Below the pieces are notes generated by a model. That model was not told the DNA's origin. It ran no database searches and was given only the letters and a program-made list of their open reading frames with translations. 64,000 bases of DNA from Natrinema amylolyticum (GTDB taxonomy: Archaea; Halobacteriota; Halobacteria; Halobacteriales; Natrialbaceae), in NCBI RefSeq assembly GCF_020515625.1, contig NZ_JAIWPJ010000001.1, positions 1,736,001 to 1,800,000 of the forward strand, given 5' to 3'. Of this stretch, positions 3,898-62,123 are shown one piece after another; position 1 is the stretch's first letter, and each line of letters begins with the position of its first letter. The position numbers were made by a program, and so were the translations under genes.

Positions 3898-5301
3898 ATG
3901 AACGACCGATACGACAGCGACCGACGGACGGACGAACGGACCGAGCGATCGAACGATACCGGGTCCCACACTCGGAATCAGGGTCGAGAGCAGAGCGACG
4001 AGAGCGACCGGAATCGACAGGGCGGCGACCGCGGCTGGCTTCACGGGTTGTTCAGCCGCGGCGAGAGCGACGACCGCGGTTCGCAGGGGCCCGAACACCG
4101 CGGACGCGAGCGAGAGCGAACGGAGGGCCACCGAGAGACGACCGCCGACACGGGCTGGGGACGCGGGTCAGGGACGACGAGCGAGAGAGACCGCGAGCGC
4201 AGCCAGCAGTCGGAGCAACGCGGTGAACGCGGTCAACGGCGAGGGCGACAGGCCGGGCAGCAGCGTGGACGGCAGTCCGGGCAGCAACGGGGCCAGCAGA
4301 CCGGACAGCAACGGGGTCAGCAGCAGGGCGGCCAACAGCGCAGCGGGTTCGAAACGAACGCGATGGACGAAGCGAACCTCGCGTACGGTGGCGAAGCCCG
4401 ACACGAGGAACGTCGTGGCGGACAGCGCGGCCAGCAGGGCGGCATGCAGGGTCAGCAGGGCGGCATGCAGGGTCAGCAGGGTATGCAGGGCCAGCAGGGC
4501 GGTATGCAACGAGGCCAGCAAGAGGGCGACCGCTCGCAACGCGGCCAACAGAGCGAGCGCAGTATGCAGGGCGGCATGCAGGGTCAGCGAGACCGCATGC
4601 AGGGCCAGCGTGGAACCGGGGGGTCCGATCGCCAGCAGGGCGAGCAACAGCAGGGCGGCATGCGACAGGGGCAACACCAACAGGGCGAGAGCCGATCCCA
4701 ACGCGGCCAGCAGGGCACGCAGCGCGGCGAGGACCGACAGGGTGCCCAGCAGCGCTGGCACGAGAGCCGAGACACCGGCACCGAACCGATGGACCGCGAA
4801 CGGGACTACCAGGGCCGACAGCATCGCGGGCAACAGAACAGGATGCGAGACCAGCAGAGAGGCCGGTCCCAGCGAGGCAGCGAGCAACACGGCAGTCAGT
4901 ACCAGCAGGGCCAGCCCGAGTCCCGTCGCCACCAGCAGAGCGAAGGCCATCAGTCCGGCACCCAACGGGATCAGGGTAGCGGACAGCGCGACCGGCGAAC
5001 CGACCGCGACTATCAGGACAGCCAACAGTTCAGCCGGCAGGAGGACCGGCGAGACACCCAAGGCTCCTCGGGCGGTCGCATGAACCGCGAGCAGCAGTCC
5101 GGCGGCGGCCTCGAGTACCGCCAACAGGGACGACGGTCCGAGCAGGGCGACTGGACCGACACCCGCGAGTCGGAGCGGGGCTCGAGCGGTGACCGAAACC
5201 AGCAGTTACAGGACGACGACATGAGCAACCGTCGCCACGTCCACGAGCGCGATCCGACCGCAGACGAGGATCGCGCCCGCGACGAGGACTGGTCGAGCTA
5301 A
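3898..5301 (+). CDS. Low-complexity Gln/Gly/Arg-rich intrinsically disordered protein
   Basis: A 467-residue protein built almost wholly from Gln, Gly, Arg, Ser, Asp and Glu, with almost no aliphatic or aromatic residues. Near residue 155 is a short less repetitive segment (NAMDEANLAYGGEAR), and after it come repeats of the form GGMQGQQ. There is no signal peptide or membrane segment, so it should be cytoplasmic and disordered. I do not recognise a family. Composition resembles RGG-like RNA-binding or hydration/stress proteins, but that is analogy only. The ATG at 3898 is preferred because the open frame before it is of different composition. A long antisense frame exists here only because of the codon bias. 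Confidence 0.75.
   Translation: MNDRYDSDRRTDERTERSNDTGSHTRNQGREQSDESDRNRQGGDRGWLHGLFSRGESDDRGSQGPEHRGRERERTEGHRETTADTGWGRGSGTTSERDRERSQQSEQRGERGQRRGRQAGQQRGRQSGQQRGQQTGQQRGQQQGGQQRSGFETNAMDEANLAYGGEARHEERRGGQRGQQGGMQGQQGGMQGQQGMQGQQGGMQRGQQEGDRSQRGQQSERSMQGGMQGQRDRMQGQRGTGGSDRQQGEQQQGGMRQGQHQQGESRSQRGQQGTQRGEDRQGAQQRWHESRDTGTEPMDRERDYQGRQHRGQQNRMRDQQRGRSQRGSEQHGSQYQQGQPESRRHQQSEGHQSGTQRDQGSGQRDRRTDRDYQDSQQFSRQEDRRDTQGSSGGRMNREQQSGGGLEYRQQGRRSEQGDWTDTRESERGSSGDRNQQLQDDDMSNRRHVHERDPTADEDRARDEDWSS
4432..4510 (+). repeat. 21-base tandem repeats encoding GGMQGQQ
   Basis: Imperfect tandem copies of a 21-base unit, GGCGGCATGCAGGGTCAGCA plus one base, encode GGMQGQQ within the low-complexity protein. 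One copy is shortened by a codon (GMQGQQ). Related but more diverged units recur at 4560-4610 and 4640-4690, so the tract has grown by slippage or unequal exchange. Confidence 0.8.
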
Positions 5302-15757: not shown

Positions 15758-15810
15758 ATCGAGAGGACGGGACTCCGTGTATCGCTTCCAGACGTGCCAG
15801 ACGATCCGCG

Positions 15811-15945
15811 GTGGCGCGCGCTGTCGACTGCTCTCACTATTGCGATCGAGCAGTCGACGACATTGTGCGAGGGATGAGCGAGGACGGGAGTCCGAGCGAA
15901 TCGGCTGGGGAGGGCGTGGCGATTCCCCGTTGCCACGATAACGGG
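15811..15945 (+). repeat. Structured non-coding repeat element, copy A (forward)
   Basis: The copy begins GTGGCGCGCGCTG and ends CGTTGCCACGATAACGG. Directly after the start is a perfect 11-base stem, GTCGACTGCTC (15823-15833) with GAGCAGTCGAC (15848-15858). The shared core GTGCGAGGGATGAGCGA and then GAATCGGCTGGGGAGGGCG follow. GTGGC at the start can pair with GCCAC at the end. It lies between the convergent 3' ends of the quinone oxidoreductase and NUDIX genes and is the forward partner of copy B. Confidence 0.85.
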
Positions 15946-15998
15946 ACATGTCCGAATAGTGTCGTCCCGATACCATCAGCGCGAGCAAGTACGATCCG

Positions 15999-16514: not shown

Positions 16515-16605
16515 ACTCGAGGATTCGCTCGGAACGGGAAAAGGGGTACGCTCGCTCGACTCACTCTCGAGTTCGTGAGGATGCGGTAGTCCGGAACGGC
16601 CGTTC

Positions 16606-16836
16606 TGCTATCGTGGCGGCAGGGAATCGCCACGCCCTCCCCAGCCGATTTCTGCTCACGGACGCGTAGCGCCCGTTCGCATGGTTCGCGGAACCGACGG
16701 TTCCGCGCTAACGCTCGCTCCGTTCGTCGCTCGCTCATCCCTCGCGCGGGGTTGTGCGACAGGTCGCCCTCGACTCCCGGTTCCTTCCAGTCACCGCTCG
16801 CGCTGACGACCTGTCGCTCAGCACGCGCCACTGCAG
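16606..16836 (-). repeat. Structured non-coding repeat element, copy B (reverse)
   Basis: On the minus strand it reads from CAGTGGCGCGTGCTG to CGCCACGATAGCA. The position-1 hairpin has a perfect 11-base stem, GCGACAGGTCG with CGACCTGTCGC (plus-strand positions 16756-16766 and 16807-16817), with a long loop. The core GCGCGAGGGATGAGCGA is intact. Two extra hairpins are inserted, one with GCGGAACC/GGTTCCGC arms and one with a GCGAACGGGCGC module shared with copy C. The 16515-16863 gap holds nothing else recognisable. Tail-to-tail partner of copy A across the NUDIX gene. Confidence 0.85.
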
Positions 16837-25920: not shown

Positions 25921-26283
25921 TTAGGCGTCCTCGTCGACGATATCGATCGTCGTCTCCCCGTGGGCACCGCGTTTCGGCAGCGTCAACTCGAGGACGCCCC
26001 GGTCGACCGTCGCCTCGGCACCGGCGTCGGACGCGTCGTCGGGCAGCGGGAGGTCGACGTCGAGGAAGAGCGACCGGTTCTCCTCGACGTACTGGTAGTC
26101 GCCGGCCGGCTCTTTCTCCCGGTGGGCGTCGATTGAGATGCGACCGTCGTCGATCGCGAGGTCGAGCGACTCGGCGGAGACGCCGGGGACGTCGAGTACG
26201 AGCAGGTAGGCGTCCTCGCTCTCGAGCAGATCGAAGAAGACGTCCTCGGAGAGGTCCCGCAACGCGTCGCGGAGCGCTGACAT
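25921..26283 (-). CDS. Small heat shock protein (Hsp20/alpha-crystallin family)
   Basis: A 120-residue chaperone. An N-terminal helix (ALRDALRDLSEDVFFDLLE) is followed by the alpha-crystallin domain with YLLVLDVPGVSAESLDLAIDDGRISIDA and ending GVLELTLPKRG, the conserved GVLxxxLPK motif. The start at 26283 was chosen because upstream frame sequence runs into the repeat-containing intergenic region. It is divergent from moeA and precedes the UbiB gene, leaving 17 bases to the possible CTG or 76 to the first ATG. Confidence 0.9.
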   Translation of the reverse strand: MSALRDALRDLSEDVFFDLLESEDAYLLVLDVPGVSAESLDLAIDDGRISIDAHREKEPAGDYQYVEENRSLFLDVDLPLPDDASDAGAEATVDRGVLELTLPKRGAHGETTIDIVDEDA

Positions 26284-26440
26284 GGATACAGGTTCGAACG
26301 CCGATACGAAAAACCCCGCGGTCGCGGCGATCCGTCGACGCCCCGCGAGCGGTCCGTGGACCATTTCGATGACGGCTGAAAGATGGAGGGAAAAGAGACG
26401 TCTCATGCCGAACTGACTACCTCCTCCCACCTCCCCCGTG

Positions 26441-26680
26441 CAGTGGCGCGCGCTGGGACGCGATGAGCGGACAGCGGACCGCGATCCGAACTCGTGCGAG
26501 GCCTTCGCGAACTTTGTGAGTGAAGGCTTGGAAGACGTGAGCGTCTTCCAGTGGATGAGCGAATAGTGCGGGACCTTCGGCCACGCATACCATGCGAACG
26601 GGCGCGGAGCGCCCGTGAGCAGACGCAGTGAGCGAATCGGCTGTGGAGGCTGAGGAAATTCCCTGTTGCCACGATAGCAG
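26441..26680 (+). repeat. Structured non-coding repeat element, copy C (forward, expanded)
   Basis: The longest copy. It begins CAGTGGCGCGCGCTG and ends GTTGCCACGATAGCAG. Its first hairpin is GGACGCG (26456-26462) with CGCGATCC (26480-26487), one bulged base. The conserved core is split by inserted hairpins: CCTTC/GAAGG, TGGAAGAC/GTCTTCCA, and ACGGGCGC/GCGCCCGT with a GGA loop. It lies in the 699-base gap between divergent hsp20 and moeA, tail-to-tail with copy D. Confidence 0.85.
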
Positions 26681-26768
26681 CACACTCTCACCCATCACGT
26701 CCTCTCTCTGGGCGGATAACTCCATACAGACGAATGGACAGCGTAATCGTCCGGAAAAGGCAGCGTCC

Positions 26769-26908
26769 TGCTATCGTGGCAACACGGAGGAGCCACGCCC
26801 TCCCCAACCGATTCGCTCATTCACTCCGTTCATTCGCTTCATCCCTCGCGCAATGTCATCGGCCGCCTTCGCTAGCGCTCAGACGGCCGACAGCGCGCGC
26901 CACCGCGG
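26769..26908 (-). repeat. Structured non-coding repeat element, copy D (reverse)
   Basis: Read on the minus strand it starts GGTGGCGCGCGCTG and ends GTTGCCACGATAGCA. The first hairpin is TCGGCCG with CGGCCGA (plus-strand 26859-26865 and 26884-26890) plus one G-T pair. The core ATTGCGCGAGGGATGA follows, then GAATCGGTTGGGGAGGGCG with a GGAGG/CCTCC hairpin. An 88-base spacer (26681-26768) with no coding content separates it from copy C. Confidence 0.85.
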
Positions 26909-26982: not shown

Positions 26983-28299
26983 ATGGAAGGTGCCGATCGC
27001 GAACGTACGGAGGCCGGGTTCAAGGTTCGGACGCCGGTCGACGAGGCGCGCCGGATTTTGCAGGAGGCAGTCGAGGGGACCGGGGACGCTGAGTCGGACG
27101 TACCCTGCGGGACCGAGACCGTCGATGTCGACCGCGCGGACGGCCGCGTCCTCGCCGCACCGGTCACGGCCGCTCGAGACGTGCCCCACTACCGGCGGGC
27201 GGCGATGGACGGCTACGCCGTCCAAGCCGCGGACACGTTCGGAGCGAGCGATCGCTCGCCGGAAGTGTTGCGGATCGCCGAGCCGGCCGGCGATACCGAC
27301 GGCGAGCACGCCACCGCCGACAGCATCGGGCCCGAGACGGCCGCACGGGTTCACACCGGCAGCGCGCTCCCGGAGGGGGCCGACGCCGTCGTCATGATCG
27401 AGCGAGTGACCGAACTCGAGTCGGTCGGCGAACTCGAGGTCGAGGACGCGGTCGCGGAAGGGGAGAACGTCGCGCCGGTCGGCGAGGACATCGAGGAGGG
27501 CCAGCACCTCTACGAGGCGGGCCACCGGCTCCGGCCGTCAGATTTGGGACTCCTGCGATCGGCGGGGTACGGCCGCGTCGCGGTGGCTCAGCAACCCAAA
27601 GTGGGCGTCGTGCCGACGGGCGAGGAACTCGTCGCGGGCGATCCGGATCCCGGCGAGGTGGTCGAGACCAACGGGCTGACGGTCTCGCGACTGGCCGAGC
27701 GCTGGGGCGCTCGCGCGACCTACCGGGACGTGGTCACGGACGATCCCGAGTCGCTGCGCGTGGCGATCCAGCGAGATCTGACGAAGGACGTCGTCGTCAC
27801 CACCGGCGGTTCCTCGGTGGGCGAACGCGACCTGTTGCCGGAAGTGATCGACGATCTGGGAGAGGTGGTCGTCCACGGTGTCGGGCTCAAACCCGGTCAC
27901 CCCGTCTGCCTCGGGATCGTACAGGACACGCCCGTCCTCGCGCTGCCGGGCTATCCCGTCGCCTGCATCGTCAACGCCGTCCAGTTCCTCCGGCCCGTCC
28001 TGCGATGGCTTGAGGGGACGACGCCCGATCCTCATCCGACCACGCGGGCCCGTCTCGAGCGCAAGATTCCGAGCGAACCCGGGACCCGGACGTTCGCGCG
28101 GGTACGACTCGAGGCACGCGACGCGGACGACCTCGGCACCGACGAGCCCCGATACGAGGCGATCCCGACGCGAGCGAGCGGGTCGGGCGTGCTCTCGAGC
28201 GTCGCGCTCGCCGACGGTTGGGTAGTCGTCGACGACGACCGCGAGGGGATTCCGGCGGGCGAGACGGTCGCCGTGGCGGACTGGGAGCCCAACGCCTGA
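26983..28299 (+). CDS. moeA: Molybdopterin molybdenumtransferase MoeA
   Basis: A 438-residue enzyme that inserts molybdate into adenylylated molybdopterin. Domain landmarks: PHYRRAAMDGYAVQAADTF (domain with the conserved DGYA), HTGSALPEGADAVVMIE, the MoaB/MogA-like domain with VGVVPTGEEL and VVVTTGGSSVGERDLLPE, the HGVGLKPGHPVCLG and LPGYPVACIVN substrate loops, and the C-terminal beta-barrel domain. The ATG at 26983 follows a haloarchaeal-type T-rich promoter (CGCTTTTGGC) by about 27 bases. The DedA gene converges with a 2-base gap. A second, longer MoeA paralogue lies at 32050-33915. Confidence 0.93.
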   Translation: MEGADRERTEAGFKVRTPVDEARRILQEAVEGTGDAESDVPCGTETVDVDRADGRVLAAPVTAARDVPHYRRAAMDGYAVQAADTFGASDRSPEVLRIAEPAGDTDGEHATADSIGPETAARVHTGSALPEGADAVVMIERVTELESVGELEVEDAVAEGENVAPVGEDIEEGQHLYEAGHRLRPSDLGLLRSAGYGRVAVAQQPKVGVVPTGEELVAGDPDPGEVVETNGLTVSRLAERWGARATYRDVVTDDPESLRVAIQRDLTKDVVVTTGGSSVGERDLLPEVIDDLGEVVVHGVGLKPGHPVCLGIVQDTPVLALPGYPVACIVNAVQFLRPVLRWLEGTTPDPHPTTRARLERKIPSEPGTRTFARVRLEARDADDLGTDEPRYEAIPTRASGSGVLSSVALADGWVVVDDDREGIPAGETVAVADWEPNA

Positions 28300-45015: not shown

Positions 45016-45080
45016 ATGCCAGGTGAACGGGCAGTGCGGCAGACCTCTGTGTCACTTCGGCTTCGAGCAACCGGTGTGCG

Positions 45081-45204
45081 GTGGCGCGCGCTGAACCGCA
45101 GTGAGCGACCAGCGAACTGCGGTTCGATCTGTGCGAGGGATGAGCGAACGAAGTGAGTGAATCGGTTGGGGAGGGCGTGGAAATCCCCGTTGCCACGATA
45201 GCAG
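45081..45204 (+). repeat. Structured non-coding repeat element, copy E (forward)
   Basis: The most compact complete copy. It starts GTGGCGCGCGCTG and ends CGTTGCCACGATAGCAG. A perfect 9-base stem, AACCGCAGT (45094-45102) with ACTGCGGTT (45116-45124), is followed by GTGCGAGGGATGAGCGA and GAATCGGTTGGGGAGGGCG, the latter with a GGGGA/TCCCC hairpin. It lies between convergent gene ends (MBL hydrolase and deoxyhypusine synthase), 36 bases from copy F. Confidence 0.88.
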
Positions 45205-45240
45205 AGCCACTGTGTTCGTTTCAGTCTCACCGACGACGAG

Positions 45241-45390
45241 CGTCCTGCTCATGCTGGCAACACGGAGTAGCCACGCCCTCCCCAGCCGATTGCGGTCCTC
45301 GCTCCCGCTGGTCGCTGTGGTCCTCATCCCTCGCGCAGTTTCGGTCCGCGTCTCACTGATCGTTCGACGCGGCCCAGCGCGCGCCACTGC
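45241..45390 (-). repeat. Structured non-coding repeat element, copy F (reverse)
   Basis: Read on the minus strand it starts CAGTGGCGCGCGCTG and ends GTTGCCAGCATGAGCA, a slightly altered tail. The first hairpin is CCGCGTC with GACGCGG (plus-strand 45346-45352 and 45366-45372) and can be extended with one mismatch. The core CTGCGCGAGGGATGA and AATCGGCTGGGGAGGGCG are intact. Tail-to-tail partner of copy E. The remaining bases of the 45016-45472 gap show no coding sequence. Confidence 0.85.
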
Positions 45391-45472
45391 ACGTCGGTTA
45401 ACCAGTCTCGAGCCGATGCGGTACGCATCGAGGGCGAGCGCAGTGGTGTCGTCTCCCGCGAGCGCCGTGCGA

Positions 45473-61427: not shown

Positions 61428-62123
61428 ATGAACCCGACTCGCGTCGACTTCGCGGTTGACCTCGCGTACGGGATTATGATTTTCGCTGCGGTCGCGCTCA
61501 TCGTCGCGGTAGAAACCGGGATCGGCATCGCGTTCGGACTCGGTGTATTGGCCTCCTACGTCATCCACGTCGCGTGGAAGATGGCCCGATTCGACCCCGA
61601 CTGGATGACGACCGAGGTCGCCGAGCGGGTCGAAGAGACGGTCAGCGATACGGTCAGCAGAGAGGTCGAAGAGACGGTTAGCGATACAGTCAGTAAGGAA
61701 GTCGGAGAGACCGTCAGCAAAGAGGTCGAGGAAACGGTCAGTGATACCGTTAGTAAGGAAGTCGAAGAGACGGTCAGTGATACGGTCAGCAAAGAGGTCG
61801 AAGAGACCGTCAGCGATACAGTGAGCAAAGAAGTCGAAGAGACCGTCAGCGACACGGTCAGTAAGGAAGTCGACAACGTGGCCGAAAAAGTCGGGGAGAC
61901 CGTCAGTGAGGACGTGACCAAGACGGTCGAAGAGACGGTTACCGACACGGTCAGCAAGGAAGTCGAGGAGACGGTCAGTGACACTGTCAGCGAGGAGGTC
62001 GAAAAGACGGTCAGCGAAGCAGTCGACGAGTCGTCCGACGACGACTCGGTCGAGACGGACGACGACGATTCGGAGTCCGATGGACGAAAAGAACCGCGTC
62101 CCTCGAGTTCGGGAGCGAAGTAA
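61428..62123 (+). CDS. Membrane-anchored protein with tandem 12-residue VEETVSDTVSKE repeats
   Basis: A 231-residue protein. Two hydrophobic helices (residues about 10-50) anchor it, ending in WKMARFDPDWM. Then come roughly nine imperfect tandem copies of a 12-residue unit, VEETVSDTVSKE (about 68-200), and an Asp/Ser-rich disordered tail (DDDSVETDDDDSESDG). Val recurs every fourth residue, giving an amphipathic helix that could form a long helical stalk or oligomer. One unit is shortened by four residues, showing in-frame length change. No known family; a membrane-shaping or cell-surface spacer role is speculative. Confidence 0.75.
   Translation: MNPTRVDFAVDLAYGIMIFAAVALIVAVETGIGIAFGLGVLASYVIHVAWKMARFDPDWMTTEVAERVEETVSDTVSREVEETVSDTVSKEVGETVSKEVEETVSDTVSKEVEETVSDTVSKEVEETVSDTVSKEVEETVSDTVSKEVDNVAEKVGETVSEDVTKTVEETVTDTVSKEVEETVSDTVSEEVEKTVSEAVDESSDDDSVETDDDDSESDGRKEPRPSSSGAK
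61629..62015 (+). repeat. 36-base tandem repeats encoding a 12-residue unit
   Basis: Imperfect copies of a 36-base unit (encoding VEETVSDTVSKE, starting GTCGAAGAGACGGTCAG) run head to tail. Synonymous changes are frequent while the amino acids are kept, pointing to old duplication under selection on the protein. A shortened copy and a diverged central unit (VDNVAEKVGETVSEDVTKT) break the register. Confidence 0.85.

Follow-up and report, generated by a model that had tools for sequence, protein, structure and literature searches.

The window analysed here, a 64,000-nucleotide stretch of the Natrinema amylolyticum genome (contig NZ_JAIWPJ010000001.1, positions 1,736,001 to 1,800,000), carries two related elements, called C and D, in the gap between hsp20 and moeA. 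Gene calling and Pfam searches confirm that the two genes diverge around the pair, and sequence reading together with a repeat search confirms that C lies on the forward strand and D on the reverse strand in a tail-to-tail arrangement, both as proposed in a preliminary description of this DNA. The genes and features of the gap are as follows.

25921-26283, reverse strand: hsp20, neighbour outside the element (Pfam HSP20)
26437-26690, forward strand: copy C, expanded element and left arm of the pair, head to tail
26441-26453, forward strand: head motif of C, GTGGCGCGCGCTG, with 28 exact copies in the genome, mostly element heads
26501-26527, forward strand: inserted hairpin of C, GCCTTCGCGAACTTTGTGAGTGAAGGC, first half of module 1
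26529-26550, forward strand: inserted hairpin of C, TGGAAGACGTGAGCGTCTTCCA, second half of module 1, arms TGGAAGAC/GTCTTCCA
26598-26616, forward strand: inserted hairpin of C, ACGGGCGCGGAGCGCCCGT, module 2, arms ACGGGCGC/GCGCCCGT, common to copy B
26635-26655, forward strand: core of C, AATCGGCTGTGGAGGCTGAGG (family consensus AATCGGYTGGGGAGGGYGTGG)
26666-26680, forward strand: tail of C, TTGCCACGATAGCAG
26681-26767, no strand assigned: spacer between the tails of C and D, 87 nt
26759-26907, reverse strand: copy D, unexpanded element and right arm of the pair (covariance model 155.1 bits, E 1.2e-46)
26858-26890, reverse strand: variable stem P3 of D, TCGGCCG.../...CGGCCGA
26891-26903, reverse strand: head motif of D
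26983-28299, forward strand: moeA, neighbour outside the element (Pfam MoeA_N/MoCF/MoeA_C)

The spacer, previously given as 88 bases, measures 87 nt by the boundaries used here. Both hairpins that had been placed in the core of C (TGGAAGAC/GTCTTCCA and ACGGGCGC/GCGCCCGT) are found, the module sequence GCGAACGGGCGC is present in both C and copy B as claimed, and the TCGGCCG/CGGCCGA stem of D does occupy the same place as the equivalent stem in other copies. Beyond these features, C holds further inserted hairpins, namely GCCTTCGCGAACTTTGTGAGTGAAGGC (26501-26527), whose module recurs at the same position in loci L009, L019, L024 and L025, and GTGCGGGACC...CACGC.

The repeat family in the window and across haloarchaea

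A covariance model was built from an alignment of 14 copies of this genome, with D among them and C left out. The model recovers all six copies in the window (A to F), and splits C into two matches (26439-26575, 40.4 bits, and 26593-26689, 41.9 bits; E about 1e-11) because of its inserted modules. The four copies outside the hsp20-moeA gap are listed here.

15807-15953, forward strand: copy A, single insertion between adh and nudix genes
16596-16835, reverse strand: copy B, expanded single insertion between arginase-family and nudix genes
45077-45213, forward strand: copy E, left arm of another tail-to-tail pair (124.2 bits)
45236-45391, reverse strand: copy F, right arm of the pair with E (124.1 bits)

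A composite unit made of A, the nudix gene and B was considered and rejected, since species lacking A or B still have the nudix gene at this position; every species compared has it there, so A and B inserted separately. An Rfam search of the window returned a single match, an sR-tMet C/D box small RNA (RF02163; 56424-56496, forward strand). Two other repetitive tracts were noted in the window: direct repeats with a 12/36-bp period at 61575-62060, probably inside a gene for a repetitive protein, and repeats of the GGCATGCAGGGTCAGCAG type at 4403-4741, probably a Gly/Met/Gln-rich protein stretch.

The genome as a whole yields 60 model matches at E values up to 0.01, which correspond to roughly 50-55 copies, since several expanded copies are split in two and a few matches are weak. 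Among 60 relatives, many genomes of the same genus hold about 40-60 matches (listed values 43 to at least 51), whereas some hold 0-2 copies, a scarcity confirmed when twelve low-copy genomes were searched again with higher sensitivity. In two genomes from other families the model finds 45-48 matches. When 295 genomes sampled from the phylum were searched, 18 gave matches, and all 18 fall within the same order. Carriers include Natrinema, Natronococcus, Haloterrigena, Halopiger, Halostagnicola, Natronorubrum, Natribaculum, Halogranum, Salinigranum and Salinarchaeum. No Rfam family matches above its gathering score (the best match, at chance level, scores 22.7 bits where the gathering score is 68), and a search of open-access papers for the sequence motifs found none. 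The family to which C and D belong thus consists of real, strongly structured and dispersed repeats of haloarchaea that are apparently undescribed so far.

Weak conservation also extends into single-copy flanks, for example at L160, L170 and L181, where it reaches about 25-45 nt beyond the head on the upstream side (ATCAACCGGCATGCG) and about 45 nt beyond the tail on the downstream side (CCATCAGAA...CTGTTCCATT). Given such flanks on both sides, the original element may have been about 220 nt long.

Conserved fold and the chemistry of the folding strand

The head-to-tail strand of the element has a conserved branched fold, in which the CGCGC stem P2 carries the variable stem P3, and stem P4, opened by GAGGGATGAG and closed by AATC, is followed by the almost invariant GGYTGGGGAGGGYGTGG. 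In an alignment of 101 copies taken from other genomes, pairing holds in 92.7% of cells, and covariation in the same copies is 0.371, compared with 0.156 (s.d. 0.005) for shuffled alignments and at most 0.103 for slid structures; for 39 mostly distant copies, other families included, the value is 0.336 against 0.155 shuffled. Both alignments were fitted to the covariance model and hence lean towards it, and kinship can lift scores above those of shuffles, yet the slid controls preserve relatedness and also lie far below the observed covariation. The sequence of P3 changes almost freely with its pairing kept, as both-sided changes occur in 11 of 11 P3 pairs across the family. Both GAGGGATGAG and CGGYTGGGGAGGGYGTGG are near-invariant across families. 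Stem P1, which would join the head with the tail, is weakly supported: its changes are mostly one-sided, and conservation of the tail does not extend to other families. Since the helices are kept by compensating changes, the earlier view that these are not neutral repeats stands.

All helices together contain 580 G.T pairs and 62 A.C pairs, an excess which indicates that folding takes place on the modelled strand. Whether it folds as RNA or as DNA had been left as a choice between structured RNA and folding-based mobile DNA, and both remain live. The G.U pairs in the consensus and the G.U excess favour RNA, whereas the loop types favour DNA. Specifically, a hairpin of the form GA-NN-loop-NN-GA occurs in 85 of 89 elements, with 169 such hairpins against 15 in shuffles. 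GNA triloops make up 43 of 78 loops, and the GNNA tetraloops are GNYA in 31 cases versus GNRA in 11, mostly closed by C-G, all these hairpin and loop counts being non-independent because the copies are related. RNA would be expected to favour GNRA loops. GNA and GNNA loops on G-C pairs, on the other hand, are exceptionally stable DNA mini-hairpins (PMC4686876).

The four GG tracts of the core are intact in 130 of 134 copies, the last loop varying somewhat; this conservation is biased in the L140-L219 set, whose loci were fetched with a core-containing pattern, but the A3 set, fetched independently of that pattern except for L198, L213 and L219, agrees. The four tracts would possibly suit a two-tier G-quadruplex. 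A protein site would also fit the core, because a T and an A in the loops are invariant too.

Paired arms, exchanged modules and the age of the insertions

All 25 close pairs are tail-to-tail (7 in this genome, 15 at other loci and 3 in other families), a count from which A and B were left out, as a gene lies between them, and in which a few pairs are mutually orthologous. Between model ends, most spacers measure 18-81 nt. Single elements score like pair members (medians 115.5 against 126 bits; Mann-Whitney p 0.62), and being as well conserved, they indicate that the pair is not clearly the unit. In the hsp20-moeA gap of G004 (Natrinema mahii) and G005 (loci L076 and L082), the arms are separated by a spacer that includes an inserted palindrome of about 75 bp, with CTATAGTAGCCG.../...CGGCTACTATAG at its ends, resembling a MITE that landed between the two tails.

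Extra hairpin modules sit at fixed joints of the element. The module-1 consensus hairpin GGAAGACGCGAAGCGTCTTCC has five exact copies in the genome, all five at element positions, and at one orthologous single copy G004 carries a module of about 59 nt that is missing from G005. The modular gain of hairpins with retention of ends, described initially for C, therefore recurs in many copies and differs between species at one site. The arms of the pair have also exchanged stems. The P3 stems at the C/D site are C-type on the left and D-type on the right in G000, the reverse in G018, C-type in both arms in G015, and D-type in both in G004 and G005. The spacer at this site scores 0.47 between G000 and G008 when aligned directly and 0.77 when inverted, and the corresponding values for G018 and G008 are 0.54 and 0.86; by these values, the spacer is inverted in G008. 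For two G004/G005 pairs, an inversion that looked clear by eye was dropped, although one spacer weakly prefers the inverted alignment (0.67 versus 0.54). Stem exchange and spacer inversion are the expected products of recombination or gene conversion between inverted arms, and such recombination may explain the modular look that was first remarked on.

The insertions are old; some species share them and others lack them. The hsp20-moeA gap measures 102 nt and holds no element in three relatives (G016, G002 and G011), and spans 584-973 nt in many others. The pair occupies it in G000, G015, G018, G008, G010, G004 and G005; G007 (N. thermotolerans) and G006 have one arm each, G012 retains a remnant of a head, and the gap of G003 is filled by other DNA. 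In G007 (L081) the left arm stands alone, and the rest of the gap consists of several hundred unrelated bases that may be another mobile element; G006 and G003 (L084 and L087) both have a related additional insert in the gap, possibly with a small open reading frame. Most relatives lack an element at site A, the gap being 4-27 nt in G015, G013, G004, G014, G016 and G008. Seven species have an element at site B, G013 keeps a remnant there, and the site is empty in G016, G009 and G012; the remnants in G012 (hsp20-moeA gap) and G013 (site B) are heads only. Across the seven filled sites, the motif boxes are 89-96% identical, compared with 64% and 58% for the flanks and a shuffled baseline of 46%. 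Part of this in-place conservation could come from concerted evolution between copies. In the stretch compared between G004 and G005, all nine copies are shared at about 92% identity, and no transposition is seen between the two genomes among these nine. No terminal inverted repeats are evident in single elements, and the empty sites are too diverged to define target duplications.

Several kinds of helper and carrier were looked for. Neither Y1 transposases nor TnpB are linked to copy number: no Y1 match exists in G004, G006, G008, G021 (N. zhouii), G027 (N. salsiterrestre), G041 or G043, each with about 45 or more copies, and up to 5 Y1 transposases are present in genomes with 0-1 copies. IscB (RRXRR) was matched in none of 61 genomes, a search that also gave no match in control genomes. 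An autonomous copy beside the sole element of low-copy genomes was rejected as a candidate, as the neighbours there look like ordinary genes. Phages gave no match to the element and IMG/VR gave none with the core pattern; four IMG/VR hits of a looser pattern were rejected as chance. Plasmid carriage was likewise rejected, as the records are few and the best one has ribosomal-protein and RNA polymerase genes. A 987-kb record from Natrinema thermotolerans A29 (L277, CP031304.1), labelled plasmid unnamed6, is probably a piece of the chromosome because genes for ribosomal proteins and RNA polymerase, and also moaA, lie on it.

Explanations for the pair and comparison with known repeats

The suggestion that the pair influences hsp20 or moeA is not supported by comparison with relatives and with other copies, although a side effect on their expression may exist. 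Among 79 copies with both neighbouring genes called, 30 lie between convergent genes, 20 run with and 18 against co-directional genes, and 11 lie between divergent genes. No head lies closer than 64 nt to a facing start codon, but stop codons are approached to 12 nt. This pattern has the look of tolerated insertions and argues against a cis role on hsp20 or moeA. Furthermore, the sequence blocks beside both start codons are similar with and without the pair, including where the empty gap is 102 nt. A cis-acting UTR element or terminator, tuning hsp20 or moeA at this site, would draw on the intergenic location of the copies, often soon after stop codons (median near 85 nt), and on the somewhat T-rich stretch after the tail. 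Such a role is unlikely, because the copies have no orientation bias relative to genes (20 ++ versus 18 -- contexts), and in the three relatives without the pair the promoter-proximal sequence is little changed.

Instead, the pair has the appearance of an ancient element that spread by itself and is under selection, and not of a switch for hsp20 or moeA. The reading we favour, with somewhat better than even confidence in this analysis, is that C and D form the two arms of a single copy from a haloarchaeal repeat family, which is dispersed, modular and non-autonomous and works in the manner of BOX or REPIN elements. Copies would have spread long ago via a trans-acting activity that recognises the folded strand, either as single-stranded DNA at replication or as a transcript, and selection on this recognition would keep the family. 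Modules would be swapped by recombination or gene conversion between copies, aided by the inverted arms. The hsp20-moeA position would be incidental, in a gap that tolerates insertion and with the sequence beside both start codons intact. This reading is supported by covariation, strand specificity, the tail-to-tail pairs, in-place motif conservation, empty sites, patchy copy number, module differences, arm exchange, spacer inversion, the recurrent GA-NN-loop-NN-GA hairpins and the placement relative to genes. Against it stand the lack of transposition between G004 and G005 and of any helper among those looked for, the absence of definable target-site duplications, the equal conservation of singles and a possible share of concerted evolution in the in-place conservation. 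More tentatively, and with less than even confidence, the family may form a new class of folded mobile or domesticated archaeal element, with a strand-specific branched structure, a near-invariant GG-tract core (possibly a G-quadruplex), recognition by a factor, dozens of copies, and tail-to-tail arms that recombine and trade hairpin modules.

A different, less probable account is that the copies are multi-copy genes for a trans-acting structured RNA, transcribed head to tail, whose branched fold binds a protein or ligand, with dozens of copies retained by the cell because they serve a cellular function. The RNA-like tolerance of G.U, the G.U pairs of the consensus, the near-invariant core across families and the conservation in place all suit such genes, but other species of the genus manage with 0-2 copies, the weakly conserved stretch before the heads has no obvious promoter motif, and the GNA/GNNA loops are of a DNA-stable kind, with GNYA exceeding GNRA (31 to 11). 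Strand-specific folding and DNA-type hairpin loops would suit a PATE-like derivative of IS200/IS605, moved by a Y1 transposase on single-stranded DNA, and PATEs are common in another haloarchaeon (PMC3119063). This origin is quite improbable, given the seven genomes that combine about 45 or more copies with no Y1, the 0-1-copy genomes with up to 5, and the finding that none of the loci read has a larger transposase element with the same ends. If the copies were neutral, decaying relics and their hairpins a by-product of repetition, the fragments in G012 and G013, where only heads are left, would be accounted for. We consider this very improbable, as covariation lies far above the shuffled and slid controls and the motif boxes stay conserved at their site between flanks that have diverged.

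Returning to the favoured reading, the C/D family is placed among modular, paired, non-autonomous interspersed repeats, but not within BOX, REPIN or PATE. With the BOX elements of Streptococcus (boxA-boxB-boxC; PMC3049150), it shares dispersal, fixed ends with variable inner modules, extensive predicted structure, and an old spread with slow current turnover. It differs in being archaeal, in its covarying branched core, in its tail-to-tail pairs and in having hairpin modules at fixed joints; the likeness lies in the way of working and is an analogy, with no sequence homology claimed. Like REP/REPIN sequences with RAYT (PMC3116915), the family forms extragenic inverted doublets with a short spacer, singles are common, and hairpins carry compensatory changes. 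However, its arms are about 140 nt long with a branched fold, unlike the 20-40-nt REPIN palindrome, its singles are no more degraded than pair members, and it has no Y1/RAYT link. The PATEs and SMRs of Haloquadratum walsbyi (PMC3119063) are also transposase-free mobile haloarchaeal repeats, and PATEs carry palindromes. The present family differs in showing no visible dependence on Y1, and in a conserved branched fold and module exchange that the account of PATEs and SMRs does not mention. HEARO elements, which are associated with IscB omega-RNA, exist as many ORF-less copies of a structured RNA. The C/D family shares this feature, but has neither an Rfam match nor an IscB match in the 61 genomes, where the controls were also blank.

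These findings mean that haloarchaeal intergenic gaps carry dozens of copies of a structure matched by no Rfam family. The family offers a rich natural alignment for studying how folded repeats persist, through compensatory changes, module differences and arm exchange. Its strong strand bias makes the question of RNA or DNA directly testable, and comparing genomes that have about 50 copies with congeners that have none offers a ready way to screen for the recognising factor.
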